Shown here one piece after another: positions 25,117 through 33,911 of a DNA stretch of 34,477 nt. The stretch is from Lishizhenia sp. GTDB lineage: Bacteria > Bacteroidota > Bacteroidia > Flavobacteriales_D > Crocinitomicaceae. The notes below the pieces were generated by a model. The model made no database searches. It was not told where the DNA came from and worked only from the letters and a program-made list of their open reading frames with translations. The stretch lies in NCBI GenBank assembly GCA_007117355.1, contig SKGS01000145.1, forward strand, positions 1 to 34,477, given 5' to 3'. The position numbers and the translations under genes are program-made. The number at the start of each line of letters is the position of its first letter. Position 1 is the stretch's first letter.

Positions 25117-26385
25117 ATGTCAGTTTTAGAAATGAAGGTACCAAGCCCAGGAGAATCAATTTCCGAAGTGGAGATTGCACAATGGATGGTATCAGATGGA
25201 GATTACGTAGAAAAAGATCAAACAATAGCTGAGGTTGACTCCGATAAGGCAACATTAGAATTACCAGCGGAAGCAGCTGGGATTATTACCTTAAAAGCGG
25301 AAGAAGGTGATACGGTTGCTGTTGGTCAAGTGGTGTGTTTGATTGACACATCTGCTGAAAGACCAGCAGGAAGTACTGAGCCAAAGCCTGAGGCTAAAAC
25401 AGAAGCGCCTAAAGAAGTAAAAGAGGAAAAATCAGAAACTGAAAAATCTGTTGAGAAAACCTCTTCTCCAGCAAAAAGTGAGAGTTATGCCACTGGTACT
25501 GCTTCCCCTGCTGCTAAAAAAGTCATGGCTGAAAATAATATTCAGTCGAATCAAGTTAAAGGAACTGGTAAAGATGGTAGAATAACAAAACAAGATGTAC
25601 TAGAGGCAATGGCTGCTGGTTTCGACACTAATACTGTTTCTGGTTGGGGTGGAACGAGAGAGAAGCGCGCTGAGAAAATGTCTATGTTAAGACGTAAAGT
25701 TGCTGAGCGATTGGTTTCTGTTAAAAATGATATGGCAATGTTGACCACTTTTAACGAAGTGGATATGAAGCCAATTATGGACTTGCGTGCGAAGTACAAA
25801 AAAATGTTTGCCGAGCATCATGAAATCAACTTAGGTTTTATGTCTTTCTTTACAAAGGCATGTACTGAGGCACTTAATTTATTCCCTGCTGTAAATGCAC
25901 AAATTGATGGAAAAGATATGATTTTTCATGATTACGCAGATGTTGCAATTGCAGTTTCTTCGCCAAAAGGATTAATGGTTCCTGTTATTCGAAATGCGGA
26001 ACAAATGACCCTTGCTGAAATTGAAAGAGAGGTAAAAAGATTAGCGATAAGAGCGCGAGATGGTAAAATTACACCCGATGAAATGACTGGTGGAACTTTC
26101 ACAATTACAAACGGTGGAGTGTTTGGTTCTATGATGTCAACGCCAATAATCAATCCTCCTCAATCTGCAATTTTAGGAATGCACAATATCGTGGAACGTC
26201 CAGTAGCAATTGATGGAAAAGTAGAAATTCGTCCAATGATGTATTTAGCACTTTCTTACGACCATCGTATTATCGATGGAAAAGAATCTGTTAGCTTCTT
26301 AGTTAAAGTTAAAGAAATGCTAGAGAATCCAGAAAGAATGATTTTCGGTGGTAAAGACCCTTATGAGGTGCTTTTAGGACTTTAA
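25117..26385 (+). CDS. sucB: Dihydrolipoyllysine succinyltransferase (E2 of 2-oxoglutarate dehydrogenase)
   Basis: A 422-residue E2 subunit. Domains in order: a single lipoyl domain (1-78) with the lipoylated lysine K44 in [12 protein letters not shown]; a linker rich in Glu, Lys, Pro and Ala (about 85-125); a peripheral E3/E1-binding domain (about 127-168, [20 protein letters not shown]); and the catalytic acyltransferase core (about 190-422) with the active-site [11 protein letters not shown] (H383, D387). It transfers the succinyl group to CoA. The single lipoyl domain and sucA upstream support SucB over the pyruvate dehydrogenase E2. Transcription ends at the strong terminator 26409-26434. 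Confidence 0.98.
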
Positions 26386-26494: not shown

Positions 26495-29137
26495 ATGATT
26501 ATACCTACCAATGATTTGGAGAATTTTCCAAACAAGATTTGGGTGCGCCTTTGCGTTGCTGAAAATTTTGAGTCGCTTAAAATAGAAGCCTTTGAAGGTA
26601 AAATAGACTCTTTAACAACATTATCTTCTTATTTTAAAACTTCTCATTGGGAGAAACTCATTAATCTCATTAAAGAAAATCAAATTTACCCTTTAGAACA
26701 AACGCTACTACTTCATTCGTCAAAACTGAAGAACGAGCGTTTTTTAGCTTATGTTTATTTCGAAACTCGAAAACAAATACAAATTACCATTCGAAATCTC
26801 GAAAATTTTATCACCCCAAAAAGAAGTCCTTATGAATTAACAATAGAAGAAAGTTCTAAACTATGGACCTTTGGGTTTTGGGAGTTTTATCCTACTACAG
26901 GTGAAGCACTTTGGTCTAGTAAAGTATTTGAAATCTTTGGTTACGATTTAGACACGGAACCAAGTTATGAAAATCTATTAAAAATTATTCACCCTGATGA
27001 CCGTGCTGTTTTCGAACATGAGTTTAAAAATCATTTAATAAATAAGGTTCCCTTTGATCTAGAACACCGTATTATTCCTGTAGGAAAAGACCCTATATGG
27101 GTTAGATGTAGATGCACGACCAAGTTTGATGAGACAGGAAAACCAATCAATTCCTTTGGTATCACAGTGGACATTGATCACTACAAAAACACGGAACTTT
27201 CCCTTATTAAAGAGAAATCAGAGTTTGAGTTTTTGTTTAATAATATGAATCAGGGCGTTGTTTATCAAAACAAAGCTGGTGAAATAATACGTGCAAATAA
27301 AGCTGCCGAAAATTTATTAGGTTTAAGTATTGAACAATTACAGGGTAAAAAGTCGATAGACCCTGACTGGTATGCAATGAAAGCAGATGGCAGTCCGTTT
27401 CCAGGTGAAGAACATCCTGCTATGGTTTCTTTAAAAACGGGTGAATCAATTTATAATGTGGAGATGGGCGTGTATCATCCATTAAAAAAAGAGCATGTAT
27501 GGATATTGGTTAGTGCACAACCCGAATTCCTCGGTGATGAGAAAGACCCTTATCGTGTTTTTACTTCATTTACAGACATTACAGAACTTAAAAAAAATCA
27601 AATAGCTTTAAAGCAAACTCAATCTGAATTAGATCAAAAAATCAAGGAACTAGAGACACAAAAGAATTTACAAAATTTACTTCTTTCTATATCTTCCAAT
27701 TACATACTTTTTGACTCGAACGATTTTGAACGAAAAATCAACAATTCCCTCGCAGAATTAGGTGCATTTATAAAAGCCGATCGATTCTATATTTTTGAAT
27801 ATGACTACACCAATAAAGTGTGCAACAACACTTATGAATGGTGCGCTGAAGGTGTTCATCCTGAAATGGATAACTTACAAAATGTACCTTTTGAGTTGTT
27901 CCCCGAATGGCTCGAAAAACATGAAAAAGGTGAGAAATATGAAGTTCAAAATGTGCAATCCTTACCTGAGTCAAGTAATACATTTCAGCTACTGAATCCA
28001 CAAGGAATCAAAAGCATTATTACATTACCCATTCTGCATCATAATAATTGTCTAGGATTTATTGGCTTGGACTTCGTAACTGACTACCATATTCCGGGCA
28101 CAAATGAGAATGTATTACTGGATATATTTGCCAAACTAATTTCGAACGTATTTATTCAATTAGATAATCTAACAAAAGTAGAACGTTACAGTAAAATAGT
28201 AGAAAATAGTAAAAATGAAATTTATATTTTTGACTATCACAACTATAAATTTATCAATGCAAATAATGCTGCATTATCAAATATTGGCTATTCCTTTTCT
28301 GAACTTATAGAATTCACTCCTTGGGACATTAAACCAGAGTTTTCACAACAACAATTTGAGCTATTTATTCAACCATTAAAAAACAACGAGGTTCAGTCAC
28401 TAAATTTTGTAACCTATCATAAACGAAAAGACGGATCCAAGTATCCTGTGAAAATTTCGCTGCGAAAACTTGAAATTGGCAACAAATTCATGTTTGTGGC
28501 CATCATAGAGGATATCACCAACGAATTTTTTGCAAACAAAGCACTAGAGGATAGTGAGAAAAGGTTTAGAAAAATATTTGAAGACAATGCCACTCCAATG
28601 CTACTTTATAGGCTAGATAGCTTAGAAATTCTTGATATGAATAAAGCTGCGTTGGAATTTTATGGAGTTCAAAAGAGTAACCTTGGAAATCTCCGTGTTT
28701 CTTCATTGACCTGTAATCAGGACGATTTGACCAAGAAAGTAATTCAGCTTAAAGAATTTGAACACTCAAAAATTGAAACTAAGCACAAAACGTTGGATAA
28801 CCAAATTATTGATGTTGAAGTGTTTTCAACTTCTATCAATTATAATTATGGAGCTGTTGTACATGAAATCATTTTTGATATTTCACGAAGAAATAAATAT
28901 TTTCAAACAATCGAAAGTCAAAATAAGCGTTTTAGAGAAATTGCTTGGATGCAATCACATGTTTTAAGGGCACCTATTGCACGAATTTTGGGGCTCATTA
29001 TGTTATTAAAAGAAAACGGACTAAACAAAGATGAGTCAGATATGGCATTTCGTGAAATCGAAAATTCAGCAAAAGAGCTTGATCAAATCGTACATGAAAT
29101 GAGCGCCATAACACAAAATAAAAAAGAAGATAATTAA
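26495..29137 (+). CDS. Multi-PAS/GAF sensor protein with HisKA box but no ATPase domain
   Basis: An 880-residue cytoplasmic sensor. Domains in order: an N-terminal region of unknown type (1-110); PAS 1 with its PAC (about 120-235, ending FGITVDIDHYKNTE); PAS 2 (about 243-368, ending TSFTDITELKKNQ); a coiled coil (about 368-395); GAF (about 395-550, with FIKADRFYIFEYDY); PAS 3 (about 562-690, ending IIEDITNEFFANK); PAS 4 (about 700-805); then a HisKA-like helix pair with the phospho-acceptor H822 in QSHVLRAPIARILGL. The protein stops about 55 residues later, with no N, G1 or G2 box, so the ATP-binding catalytic domain is missing. It has no membrane segments. It could serve as a dimerising phosphotransfer sensor for a kinase encoded elsewhere. 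The receiver gene follows after one base. Confidence 0.9.
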   Translation: MIIPTNDLENFPNKIWVRLCVAENFESLKIEAFEGKIDSLTTLSSYFKTSHWEKLINLIKENQIYPLEQTLLLHSSKLKNERFLAYVYFETRKQIQITIRNLENFITPKRSPYELTIEESSKLWTFGFWEFYPTTGEALWSSKVFEIFGYDLDTEPSYENLLKIIHPDDRAVFEHEFKNHLINKVPFDLEHRIIPVGKDPIWVRCRCTTKFDETGKPINSFGITVDIDHYKNTELSLIKEKSEFEFLFNNMNQGVVYQNKAGEIIRANKAAENLLGLSIEQLQGKKSIDPDWYAMKADGSPFPGEEHPAMVSLKTGESIYNVEMGVYHPLKKEHVWILVSAQPEFLGDEKDPYRVFTSFTDITELKKNQIALKQTQSELDQKIKELETQKNLQNLLLSISSNYILFDSNDFERKINNSLAELGAFIKADRFYIFEYDYTNKVCNNTYEWCAEGVHPEMDNLQNVPFELFPEWLEKHEKGEKYEVQNVQSLPESSNTFQLLNPQGIKSIITLPILHHNNCLGFIGLDFVTDYHIPGTNENVLLDIFAKLISNVFIQLDNLTKVERYSKIVENSKNEIYIFDYHNYKFINANNAALSNIGYSFSELIEFTPWDIKPEFSQQQFELFIQPLKNNEVQSLNFVTYHKRKDGSKYPVKISLRKLEIGNKFMFVAIIEDITNEFFANKALEDSEKRFRKIFEDNATPMLLYRLDSLEILDMNKAALEFYGVQKSNLGNLRVSSLTCNQDDLTKKVIQLKEFEHSKIETKHKTLDNQIIDVEVFSTSINYNYGAVVHEIIFDISRRNKYFQTIESQNKRFREIAWMQSHVLRAPIARILGLIMLLKENGLNKDESDMAFREIENSAKELDQIVHEMSAITQNKKEDN

Positions 29138-29138
29138 G

Positions 29139-29537
29139 ATGGAAAATACAAAAGTTCTACTCGCAGACGATGATAAGTTGATTCATTTTTTATTCAAAAA
29201 AATGACTAGCACCATTTCCTTTTACAGTCCTCTTTCTGTATTCAATGACGGAAAAGAGCTTTTAGATTATTTGGAAGACAAGGCAGAATCCGATGTCCGT
29301 TACCTCATCTTTTTAGATATCAATATGCCTGTTATGACTGGGTGGGAATTTCTGGAAAGCATTAAGAATAAACCAAAATTCTCCAATTTATCCATTGTCA
29401 TGTTTTCTTCGTCTATAGACCAAGAAGACGTGAATAAGGCCTTTAGTTTTGACCATGTTTTTCACTTTGAATCGAAACCGATTAATCGAGAAAAATTGTT
29501 GGTCATTTGGGACAAATATCATGCTACTGTCAAATAA
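29139..29537 (+). CDS. Single-domain response regulator (CheY-like receiver)
   Basis: A 132-residue stand-alone receiver domain. All key residues are present: the acidic pair in LADDDK (D11, D12), the phospho-acceptor D60 in FLDINMP, S90 in MFSSS, and K113 in ESKP. There is no DNA-binding or enzymatic output domain, so it acts through protein contacts. It starts one base after the PAS/HisKA gene, so the two are translationally linked and the receiver is the obvious partner for H822. As the sensor lacks its own ATPase domain, phosphate must come from another kinase, from the receiver itself as a shuttle, or from a small donor such as acetyl phosphate. Confidence 0.93.
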   Translation: MENTKVLLADDDKLIHFLFKKMTSTISFYSPLSVFNDGKELLDYLEDKAESDVRYLIFLDINMPVMTGWEFLESIKNKPKFSNLSIVMFSSSIDQEDVNKAFSFDHVFHFESKPINREKLLVIWDKYHATVK

Positions 29538-29651: not shown

Positions 29652-32207
29652 TTATTGCTGCTTGATAAAATGCTTAGTTATAATACCGTCTGTTTTCTTG
29701 AAGCGCACATAATACATACCAGGCGCAAAATCCCTTACAGAAACAACAAATTGATTAGAGAAAATACGATTTTGATGAACAAGTTTTCCCTCAGCACTGT
29801 AAATTGCAATTTCCTCTAACTGTAAATTTTCAGTTGTTACATAAAGTTGATCATCTACAGGATTAGGAAACAAGGAAATACTGTTCGCTTCGTTTTCCGC
29901 TGTATTTAAAGGGAAACCAATCGCATTTGAAAAGTTAGAGCAACCATTTTCACCTGTAAATGAAACACTGTAAAAACCTGACATTGTAGGATAATATACT
30001 TGTTCCGTTGCCCCTGGAATAAGCACGTCGTTTCTATACCATTGTATTGAAGGTCCTGCTGTTGTTACCAAACTATTATTTACACGTGTAACAACTGGTT
30101 TTGGAGGCGATTCTCCTTCAATAACTAATAATGTATCAGAGAAAACACGACAGCCCTGTTCATCAATTCCCAGAACGAAATACGCCCCTGTATCTGCAAT
30201 AGTAATGGTCGGTGTGGTTGCATCGTTTGACCATTGATGTGATGTTAGTGTTAAAGAAGGCCATAAAGTCGTAACACCTTGACATATATATGGATTGCCT
30301 AAAATATCAGGGTGTTTATTTGTATGAGCCAATAAATCAAATGAATTCAACCTTCCAAATCCGTAAGTGAAGTTTGGAACATTTCCAGTTAAATCATCAA
30401 CTACCGATGTTTCTTTTAAACTCGTTTTAAAATCTTCCCAGTTGCTATTACGACATTTTTCAAGATAAAGAGCCGCAGATCCAGCAACGACAGGGGAAGC
30501 CATTGAAGTTCCTCCGTTTCGAATATGAAAACCACCAATTTCCGTATTATTGTTGCTTGCAGAATTATTAATCATTGCAAGTGGTCCAGCTGCAAGGGAA
30601 AGTTCACCTGTTGCAGTAACGTCAGGTTTTACAACACCCCTTCTTGTTGGTCCGCGACTCGAACCAGGGTTGATTTGACCTCTCGCTATTGCAGGATTAC
30701 CAACTACTTCGTCTCCGTTCATATTTGTATAAGAAAGTCTATTTCGAACATTTCCAACAGAAACCACTTTCTCAGAACAATTCCAAGAAGAAACAATACT
30801 TTGCAACGAATCGGGGCGAGCATAATTTACAATAGGTGGGAACTCTTCAGGAGTTGGAATATCATCTACTATTTCGTTGTAGTTTAAAAACATGCCGCTC
30901 CAAAAGTCATAACTTCCTTGTCCAAAAGTGGAAAAACGATATAAATATTCAGTTGAATCAACTTTACTCAGATAAAGTTGAAGTTGAAAATTTGGTCCAA
31001 CTATATTTCTGTATATTTCAATTGTGGCTAGTTGATTTCCAGAATGTCCATAAAGTGTATCTCTAAGCACGCCTCCCATATTTTGTAAAGGCTTTCTGAA
31101 AATGGTACTTCCTCTATCAGCATAAGAACCATCAGGTAGGTTTGCGCCAATGGAATATTCAAATTTTGCTTCAGATGTATCAGTCCATAAATCAAAAAAA
31201 ACAGTGTTTGCCCCTAAATTACTATTCGGATTGTTTCGAAGCCAAACAAATGAAGTGTCCACAGGAGATACTTGATTATGCACGTGGTATTTATCCGCAG
31301 TTCCAGAGTTTCCAGCGGCACAAACTACAATTCTTCCATTTTTTTCAGATAAAAGTTGGTCAATGTACACACCCGCAGGGTCTTTAGCATCGTGACTACC
31401 TAGATATGCTCCTAAACTCAGATTGACTACCGCTGGCATGTTAAGACTGTCAGCGATTCTGAAAATAAAATCACAAGCATCTGCAATGGTTAACGTCCAA
31501 TTGGGAAGACTAAAATTAGTTTTGACTGCAACAATACTCGCTTCGGGAGCAAAACCTTTGTTTTGTCCGTTTGCCAACCCATTACCAACAGCAATACCAG
31601 AAACAGTTGAGCCGTGACCCGGACTACCTTCGTTGCTTGTTATTGTTCCATCAATTATGTCTTGCCTTGTCCAAAGTTGTCCATAATTATAAGGCGAGGG
31701 CGAATTCGTTGGATTACCGATAGAGTGATCCCAATAAGTCAACAATCGTTTGCTGCCACTTGGTGAAATAAAGTCCGGATGATCGTGATCAATACCCGTA
31801 TCTACTATACCAACTAAAATATTTCTTCCAGTATAGCTATCGGGGAGAGGTTGTTGTCCTTGGTGAACAGCATCAACGAAATGTAAGGCTCTAGAAGAAT
31901 CGTCTAATAAATGTGGAGGAGCGTATTCGAAATAAAAATCATCTATTTGACCACCTCTAACAGACTCCATCATCCAGTTTGGATGAGCTTGAAAGAAAAT
32001 CCATTCATCTGAAGAATATTTTATTTTAATTCCTTGGCTTTTTAATGTCTCTCGGTGCTGTTCAGTATTAGGTACTGCCATTGGAATAGTAGTGTGTTCT
32101 GGATTTTCAAGCACTTTTTGAAAACCAAATTTTTCTACCTGCGAAATACTAATTTCACTAAATAAGAAACATAAAAGGAATAGTGTAAGAAATTTTTGGT
32201 ATGCCAT
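29652..32207 (-). CDS. Secreted S8 subtilase with T9SS C-terminal sorting domain
   Basis: An 851-residue subtilisin-family protease. Signal peptide 1-22 (FLTLFLLCFLFSEISIS); propeptide-like region to about 115; catalytic domain with D136 (IVDTGID), H198 (PGHGSTVSG), N300 (CAAGNSG) and S568 (GGTSMASP). Between N300 and S568 is a long insert (about 310-475), probably a beta-rich domain. After the protease come two Ig-like modules (about 635-697 and 703-766, the second with WYRNDVLIPGATEQVYYPT) and a type A sorting domain (about 778-851: LFPNPVDDQLYV to YYVRFKKTDGIITKHFIKQ). It should cross the outer membrane by type IX secretion and be released or anchored at the surface. It is divergent from the second subtilase. 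Confidence 0.95.
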   Translation of the reverse strand: MAYQKFLTLFLLCFLFSEISISQVEKFGFQKVLENPEHTTIPMAVPNTEQHRETLKSQGIKIKYSSDEWIFFQAHPNWMMESVRGGQIDDFYFEYAPPHLLDDSSRALHFVDAVHQGQQPLPDSYTGRNILVGIVDTGIDHDHPDFISPSGSKRLLTYWDHSIGNPTNSPSPYNYGQLWTRQDIIDGTITSNEGSPGHGSTVSGIAVGNGLANGQNKGFAPEASIVAVKTNFSLPNWTLTIADACDFIFRIADSLNMPAVVNLSLGAYLGSHDAKDPAGVYIDQLLSEKNGRIVVCAAGNSGTADKYHVHNQVSPVDTSFVWLRNNPNSNLGANTVFFDLWTDTSEAKFEYSIGANLPDGSYADRGSTIFRKPLQNMGGVLRDTLYGHSGNQLATIEIYRNIVGPNFQLQLYLSKVDSTEYLYRFSTFGQGSYDFWSGMFLNYNEIVDDIPTPEEFPPIVNYARPDSLQSIVSSWNCSEKVVSVGNVRNRLSYTNMNGDEVVGNPAIARGQINPGSSRGPTRRGVVKPDVTATGELSLAAGPLAMINNSASNNNTEIGGFHIRNGGTSMASPVVAGSAALYLEKCRNSNWEDFKTSLKETSVVDDLTGNVPNFTYGFGRLNSFDLLAHTNKHPDILGNPYICQGVTTLWPSLTLTSHQWSNDATTPTITIADTGAYFVLGIDEQGCRVFSDTLLVIEGESPPKPVVTRVNNSLVTTAGPSIQWYRNDVLIPGATEQVYYPTMSGFYSVSFTGENGCSNFSNAIGFPLNTAENEANSISLFPNPVDDQLYVTTENLQLEEIAIYSAEGKLVHQNRIFSNQFVVSVRDFAPGMYYVRFKKTDGIITKHFIKQQ

Positions 32208-32324: not shown

Positions 32325-33911
32325 ATGAGAAAATTTATTTTAAAATTAATTCTACCAGCCCTTATCGGGGGTTATTTCAGTGGTGCAACCGCTCAGGTAG
32401 ATAAAAACATTCTGAATTGGTATAATAACCATAAACAAGGAATGGGAACAGATAAGGCATTAAAGTCTTTGAAAAAGAAAAATCCAGAAACGGTAATCGT
32501 TGCGGTTATTGATTCAGGAATAGATGTTGAACACGAAGATTTACAAGGGAAAATCTGGGTAAATACTAAAGAAATTCCTGGCAACGGAATTGATGATGAC
32601 GGAAATGGATATGTTGATGATATTCACGGATGGAACTTCCTCGGAAATTCAAACGGAGAAAACCAAGGTCCAGCGCGTTTAGAGGTAACTCGAATTTATG
32701 CTAATCTGAGAACAAAATTTGCAGATGTTGCTGAAGAAGATGTTGCAGATGCTGATAGAAAAGATTTTGAACTTTATTTAGAAGTTAAAGAAGAAGTCGA
32801 GAGTAACAGAAAGCAATACGAACAAATTATTGAGCAAACTAAGCAGTTCAAAACGCAAATGTTACCAATGTTACCTAAAATGATTGGTAATATTATCGGA
32901 AAAGAAGATTTTACAGAAAAAGACCTTCGTAAATGGAAACCAGAAGATGCACAAGGAAAGCAAATGAAGCAAATTGCTAAAGCTTTATTATCTGGTGAAT
33001 TAACAGAAGAGGCTATTGATAGACAAATAGATCAAATTCAGTCTATGATAGACCATCATTACAATCCTGATTACGATGATAGAAGTCTTATCGGTGACGA
33101 CTACCTAGATATGACTCAAGTTAATTATGGTAACAACGATGTGACAGGACCTGATGCGATGCATGGAACACATGTTGGAGGAATTATTGGAGCAATCCGT
33201 GGTAACAAATTAGGTGGAGACGGTGTTGCTGATAATGTTTTATTAATGTCACTTCGTGCAGTGCCAGATGGAGATGAATTTGATAAAGATATTGCATTAG
33301 CAATTCGTTATGCAGTAGATAATGGCGCGAAAATCATCAATGCTTCATTTGGTAAAGCATATTCGCAATTGCCTCAAGAATTATATGATGCATTGAGATA
33401 TGCAGAGGAGAATGACGTGTTATTTGTTCATGCAGCTGGAAACTCTGCGTTAGATTTGCACGAAAACCCTAATTATCCGGTAAACATGTTCTCGTTCCAA
33501 GATAAACCATTTACTAATTATTTATCAATCGGTGCATCTACAAGAGTTCATGAAGAAGAACTGCCTGCTTCTTTCTCTAATTATGGTCAAACGAAAGTAG
33601 ATGTTTTTGCTCCAGGTTTTGAGATATATAGCACTGTTCCAGGAAATAAATACGAAAAACAACAAGGAACTTCTATGGCTGCACCAATGGTTTCTGGTGT
33701 TGCTGCAATATTAAAAGGATACTTCCCTGAGTTTACAATGGCTGAAATTCGTCAAATAATCTTAGACTCTGTTACGGATTTTTCTGAAACAGATCAAACT
33801 AAACCAGGAACTGAAGAATTAGTGAAGTTTGGTATTCTTTCAGCAACCGGTGGAGTTGTGAATGTTCGTCAAGCAGTAAAACTTGCTCAAGAACGAAGCA
33901 AAGCAAATTAG
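32325..33911 (+). CDS. Secreted S8 subtilase with a large insert in the catalytic domain
   Basis: A 528-residue subtilisin-family protease. A signal peptide ends near ATAQ (residues 21-24). The catalytic triad is D63 (VIDSGID), H283 (MHGTHVGG) and S450 (GTSMAAP), with the oxyanion N373 (HAAGNSA). The stretch between D63 and H283 is 220 residues, against about 35-40 in ordinary subtilisins. It begins with NGIDDDGNGYVDDIHGWNF, a calcium-binding-like segment seen in Bacteroidota subtilases, and includes about 150 highly charged, mostly helical residues (117-260). No Ig-like or T9SS sorting domain follows, so this protein is probably periplasmic. It ends at a strong terminator. Confidence 0.93.
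   Translation: MRKFILKLILPALIGGYFSGATAQVDKNILNWYNNHKQGMGTDKALKSLKKKNPETVIVAVIDSGIDVEHEDLQGKIWVNTKEIPGNGIDDDGNGYVDDIHGWNFLGNSNGENQGPARLEVTRIYANLRTKFADVAEEDVADADRKDFELYLEVKEEVESNRKQYEQIIEQTKQFKTQMLPMLPKMIGNIIGKEDFTEKDLRKWKPEDAQGKQMKQIAKALLSGELTEEAIDRQIDQIQSMIDHHYNPDYDDRSLIGDDYLDMTQVNYGNNDVTGPDAMHGTHVGGIIGAIRGNKLGGDGVADNVLLMSLRAVPDGDEFDKDIALAIRYAVDNGAKIINASFGKAYSQLPQELYDALRYAEENDVLFVHAAGNSALDLHENPNYPVNMFSFQDKPFTNYLSIGASTRVHEEELPASFSNYGQTKVDVFAPGFEIYSTVPGNKYEKQQGTSMAAPMVSGVAAILKGYFPEFTMAEIRQIILDSVTDFSETDQTKPGTEELVKFGILSATGGVVNVRQAVKLAQERSKAN

Follow-up and report, generated by a model that had tools for sequence, protein, structure and literature searches.

A HisKA-type sensor lacking an ATPase domain and its lone receiver belong to a large Bacteroidota family and may form the back half of a phosphorelay

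The sensor gene and its receiver partner

What can a sensor protein do if it carries the phospho-acceptor histidine of a kinase and ends before any ATP-binding domain? The question is raised by a gene pair on a contig of Lishizhenia sp. (GCA_007117355.1, SKGS01000145.1; C216 in our numbering), whose 34,477 nucleotides are the stretch of DNA analyzed here (the window). The first gene (26495–29137, + strand) encodes an 880-aa protein in which a sequence-only reading had recognized four PAS domains, a GAF domain, and a HisKA box with H822. Pfam bore this out, placing on the + strand PAS domain 1 (PAS_3) at residues 139–220 (26909–27154), PAS domain 2 at 243–366 (27221–27592), PAS domain 3 (PAS_9) at 575–675 (28217–28519), and PAS domain 4, a third PAS_9/PAS_8 stretch with approximate boundaries taken from the sequence, at about 690–796 (28562–28882). 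The GAF-like domain (residues 415–550; 27737–28144, + strand) is a weak match, below the curated cut-off at E = 0.0088, and is resembled by the GAF region of a kinase on contig C275 of the same genome.

A DHp hairpin with the signature IAWxQSHxxRAP...SAxELDxII (28853–29134, + strand) forms the end of the protein and contributes the one HisKA kinase feature present, a DHp with its phospho-acceptor histidine, as identified by Pfam, family alignment, and AlphaFold2. The HisKA match at residues 821–870 scored 24.9 bits in the Pfam protein scan, below the cut-off of 26.9, and 29.3 bits in the genome scan, above it. H822 (codon 28958–28960, + strand, read from the sequence) is the H-box histidine and lies in IAWMQSH-VLRAP (IAWMQSHVLRAP), with V823 at H+1 and A826 at H+4; the H-E/D-x-x-T/N motif of HisKA kinases is absent, the window protein having H-V-L-R-A.

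The protein stops 58 residues past H822, close to the 55 or so first estimated, and Pfam found neither a HATPase_c (CA) domain behind HisKA nor an Hpt (PF01627) match within the 880 residues. A whole-genome search for HATPase_c, which covered the downstream frames in which a detached domain might have been sought, gave 33 matches. The window's contig has none of them, which excludes an ATPase domain in another frame downstream. The AlphaFold2 monomer model of the C-terminus, computed with 53 relatives, shows the DHp helical hairpin in full (helices 2–37/39–54 and 59–88 of the 94-residue fragment; mean pLDDT 93), from which the C-terminal domain appears whole, with the protein stopping where the DHp ends. 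A fold search with the DHp returned weak, generic helical-hairpin and kinase matches, led by LvrB (E = 0.14), and a plasmid search returned partial matches only, none covering 80% of the query.

One base separates the sensor ORF from that of P0002, a lone receiver of 132 aa (Response_reg by Pfam; 29139–29537, + strand). As originally read, it keeps all phosphorylation residues, namely the acid pocket D10/D11, the phospho-acceptor D60 (codon 29316–29318, + strand), S90, and K113, and it qualifies as a single-domain response regulator. The pair is adjoined by genes for two large subtilisin-like (S8) proteases, recognized by eye from their translations (29652–32207, − strand; 32325–33911, + strand), with no evident tie to the signaling genes.

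An ATPase-less DHp family and its receivers

In the second genome sampled from the genus (G001, locus L059), a 745-aa counterpart with 31% identity occupies the same place after odhB (25117–26385 in the window), has the same short end, and is followed directly by the start of a receiver gene. A profile of the DHps of the window, the sister, and one more protein (A2) found relatives in many Bacteroidota. The wider profile A3, applied at E 1e-12 (ordinary kinases of the window's genome reach 1.4e-9 at best), matched 125 of the 396 genomes sampled from the class and 69 of 199 genera; these are profile matches, with ATPase absence checked for part of them. The 115 distinct family members end 51–86 residues past the histidine, and none of the 81 family ORFs in named loci carries HATPase in the same ORF. 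Those 81 comprise 77 from Bacteroidota, 3 from Balneolota, and 1 from Spirochaetota, proportions that are not unbiased, since the profile used to collect members was itself built from ATPase-less DHps. The gene pair is a member of a large, old Bacteroidota family with an ATPase-less DHp. The survey of homologues proposed in the sequence-only reading, which had named full-length close relatives and a truncated copy here as the outcome that would overturn it, found instead that the sister copy and the family are short; as judged from these comparisons, the 880-aa protein is not a broken kinase.

Two further protein types came to light in the surveyed loci. A 288-aa protein of genome G039 (L066, 1468–2334, − strand) combines hydrophobic membrane segments with an ATPase-less DHp and has no adjoining receiver gene; one stretch resembles what we take to be a NarX/PilJ nitrate-sensor motif. 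A second ATPase-less DHp type (FNSHQLREPLTR), about 277 aa long, is encoded on the minus strand of Cyclobacterium loci (L137, L139, L146, L147, L150, L164, L165), where a receiver ORF of that strand adjoins the REC-PAS-DHp gene.

A tree of 198 DHps places the 115 ATPase-less domains and 83 ATPase-bearing ones on either side of a single branch, with a support of 93 that lies below our starred level in an alignment of only 71 columns. With one locus-edge artefact left out of the ATPase-less set, SHN-type kinases included, and residues counted by alignment, the position after the histidine (H+1) is acidic (D/E) in 79 of 83 full kinases versus 10 of 115 ATPase-less members, which usually have V, I, L, K, Q, or R (V in the window); given that the tree implies one origin, the Fisher p value for this contrast is not an independent test. 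H+4 is Ala in 99 of the 115, the window protein included, and the histidine is invariant in family alignment A3, as are N24, W32, S35, R39, P41, and D77. Willett and Kirby (PMC3510030) showed that CrdS, HK853, and other HisKA kinases need an acidic H+1 for autokinase activity and that several HisKA kinases need T/N at H+4 to act as phosphatases. Loss of the ATP-serving H+1 residue with retention of the histidine agrees with a protein whose sole task is to relay phosphate. By tree and alignment, the ATPase-less DHps are one old clade in which the autokinase residue was lost together with the ATPase domain.

Receivers accompany these DHps in a patterned way. A receiver gene lies directly downstream on the same strand in 41 of the 81 named-locus members, an N-terminal receiver domain is present in 40 of the 81, and some receiver link occurs in 26 of 37 genus-level groups; L190 is a natural DHp–receiver fusion, in which the receiver behind the DHp has the same LDINMPVMNGWEF motif. 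In a tree of 105 receivers, sequences sort by operon position, with 8 changes for seven labels versus 51 in shuffles. The upstream lone receivers group together (18/18), the N-terminal ones come close to a single group, and the downstream ones make up one starred set of 46. P0002, the L190 fusion, and the two lone receivers encoded next to ordinary kinases in the window's own genome belong to this set. Every group retains the phospho-acceptor Asp (downstream 53/53, N-terminal 55/55, upstream 19/19, and a further group 7/7). On the evidence of these trees, the family's DHps are coupled to one clade of receivers.

Relay-like clusters and candidate donors

Several relatives lie in clusters whose gene order, with domains assigned by Pfam for L126, resembles a relay: kinase, receiver, REC-PAS-DHp, receiver in Marivirga (L126) and Cellulophaga (L166), and kinase, REC-DHp, receiver in L171 and L181. 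These four are apparent complete relay operons, as read from their genes. In L191 and L201 (Dyadobacter), the order is DHp, receiver, hybrid kinase. An ATPase-bearing gene occurs within 1 kb on the same strand in 30 of 40 members with an N-terminal receiver versus 4 of 41 without one. The window protein is of the latter type, with sensors on the DHp protein, no N-terminal receiver, and no local kinase, so its donor must come from elsewhere; with no kinase at hand and one so rarely within 1 kb of relatives of this type, naming that donor is a guess.

The window's genome offers candidates, chosen here from domain content and likeness: ORFs with HisKA, HATPase, and REC (hybrid kinases) on contigs C178, C132, and C163, and two kinase–receiver pairs. 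In the latter, a PAS-GAF-PAS kinase with an ATPase domain precedes a lone receiver, at about 19306–21922 on C43 (L025, L204) and about 19179–22082 on C275 (L030); both kinases have an SHN-type H-box with Asn at H+1. Their receivers are the closest to P0002 in the genome (C275, 40%; C43, 32%), and we regard these pairs as full-kinase counterparts since their GAF regions and receivers resemble those of the window pair. A whole-genome search for Hpt (PF01627) gave no match. Elsewhere, a protein at L120 (1–2856) fuses a family DHp (H+1 Met) upstream of PAS and a complete HisKA-HATPase, with a receiver gene behind; it is possibly a one-chain relay or an in-cis split kinase.

A proposed phosphorelay step and its alternatives

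From this anatomy we infer phosphotransfer, its direction, its donor, and its gating. The pair probably supplies the second His and Asp of a His-Asp-His-Asp phosphorelay, with the sensor protein a gated histidine phosphotransferase that passes phosphate from kinases elsewhere to its receiver. In a DHp dimer incapable of self-phosphorylation, H822 would be charged by a phosphorylated receiver or hybrid kinase encoded elsewhere and would in turn charge D60 of the adjacent receiver, giving the full order kinase or hybrid kinase (His, Asp) to H822 to D60, and the PAS/GAF domains would gate the hand-off. The family-wide short layout and the conserved acceptors make such a transfer module, dependent on a kinase from elsewhere, the best supported of the readings proposed from the sequence. 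A point against it is that 10 of the 115 members retain an acidic H+1.

An unlikely alternative is that the DHp, under sensor control, acts as a receiver phosphatase or phosphate sink, stripping a receiver charged by another kinase. DHp domains can have phosphatase activity, a role proposed by Galperin et al. for archaeal HisKA-without-HATPase proteins (PMC5847659), and, judged by position, the genome's receivers closest to P0002 are charged by ordinary kinases; draining through back-transfer to the histidine is possible. The T/N at H+4 needed by HisKA phosphatases (PMC3510030), however, is Ala in 99 of the 115 members, the window protein among them. Less probable still is a two-part histidine kinase serving the receiver, in which a separate protein supplies the CA domain that phosphorylates H822 in trans. 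Split CheA-type kinases exist, such as Hik36-Hik43 of Synechocystis (PMC7656254), the genome's 33 HATPase matches against 20 HisKA matches imply ATPases without a HisKA match, and the L120 fusion joins a family DHp to a complete kinase; yet no CA-only gene is a regular partner in the examined loci, and the acidic H+1 used in ATP-dependent histidine phosphorylation is gone. We give little credence to a docking partner whose conformation alone sequesters or positions the receiver. Degenerate kinases can act through binding, and PhyT sequesters PhyR as well as passing phosphate to it (PMC5898713), but binding alone would not require the conservation seen, with the histidine in essentially all members and the receiver's Asp, acid pocket, T/S, and Lys kept. 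The same conservation of the histidine and of every receiver Asp makes signaling without phosphorylation, the other option raised at the outset, the less likely of the two. A recently truncated, decaying kinase gene, suggested by the lack of a domain common to most HisKA proteins, is scarcely credible and was rejected, as the layout recurs at the sister locus despite 31% identity, the clade is phylum-wide, and no ATPase remnant occurs in any frame of the contig.

Proteins of this kind are already known, having been described in three settings. In P2CS, a HisKA protein that has neither HATPase nor a receiver is classed as a phosphotransfer protein, and there is also an "incomplete HK" class (PMC2716373); with HisKA, a conserved histidine, sensors, and no HATPase, the window protein falls within this "HisKA, no HATPase" description. 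Galperin et al. reported archaeal "HisKA, no HATPase" ("nonenzymatic HK-like") proteins with PAS/GAF domains, suggesting phospho-acceptor, phosphotransfer, or phosphatase roles, and some of these proteins, AF_1472 among them, have a REC-PAS/GAF-HisKA architecture (PMC5847659). Shared with both sets are PAS/GAF sensors and a C-terminal HisKA with a conserved histidine and no HATPase. Those proteins were described as scattered architectures with no activity assigned, whereas the Bacteroidota family is one clade, distinguished by loss of the H+1 acid, a dedicated downstream receiver clade, and relay-like operons.

Third are the proven dimeric DHp-type phosphotransferases Spo0B (Bacillus), ChpT (Caulobacter), and PhyT (Sphingomonas), in which a DHp hairpin with a histidine and no autokinase activity serves the middle step of a receiver-to-receiver relay (SdrG to PhyR for PhyT); the window protein's likeness is in the hairpin, by monomer model. 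In ChpT the ATPase-fold domain is altered and binds no ATP, and in PhyT the ATPase domain is degenerated, whereas the window protein, ending so soon after H822, lacks any such vestigial CA-like C-terminal domain, and it bears four PAS domains and a GAF in place of PhyT's periplasmic sensor. Among classical kinases, those on C43 and C275 share the PAS-GAF-PAS input, the DHp, and an adjacent lone receiver of P0002's clade, and differ in their full HATPase domain. LvrB (Leptospira), a Rec-controlled histidine kinase and the downstream element of a two-kinase relay, has a REC-DHp architecture resembling the REC-PAS-DHp relatives; unlike the window protein, it autophosphorylates and its CA domain is functional (PMC13269768). 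Hpt domains (PF01627) are alike in proposed biochemical role and belong to a different family. In the literature outside subscription journals, we found the architecture in archaea and in P2CS and no description of this Bacteroidota family or of its single branch, H+1 loss, receiver clade, and relay operons; the family itself is apparently undescribed.

Beyond the sequence-only reading, the alignments, trees, and gene orders indicate a widespread single-clade family, loss of H+1 along with the ATPase domain, and kinase–receiver–DHp–receiver clusters. We lean toward a broader view, in which Bacteroidota possess a large class of histidine phosphotransferases that bear sensors, share a single origin, and derive from HisKA DHps through loss of both the ATPase domain and the autokinase residue. 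These proteins may take the place of Hpt in widespread His-Asp-His-Asp relays, where each would respond to a signal of its own in mid-relay and charge lone receivers of a clade inherited along with it. Family relatives match HisKA profiles, yet are predicted to be unable to autophosphorylate. The receiver clade and operon set named here are where the mid-relay reading is testable. If it is true, these proteins would suggest what fills the Hpt step where Bacteroidota encode hybrid kinases and lack an Hpt protein, and would constitute a mid-relay sensory checkpoint at which phosphate passes only if the PAS/GAF sensors allow.
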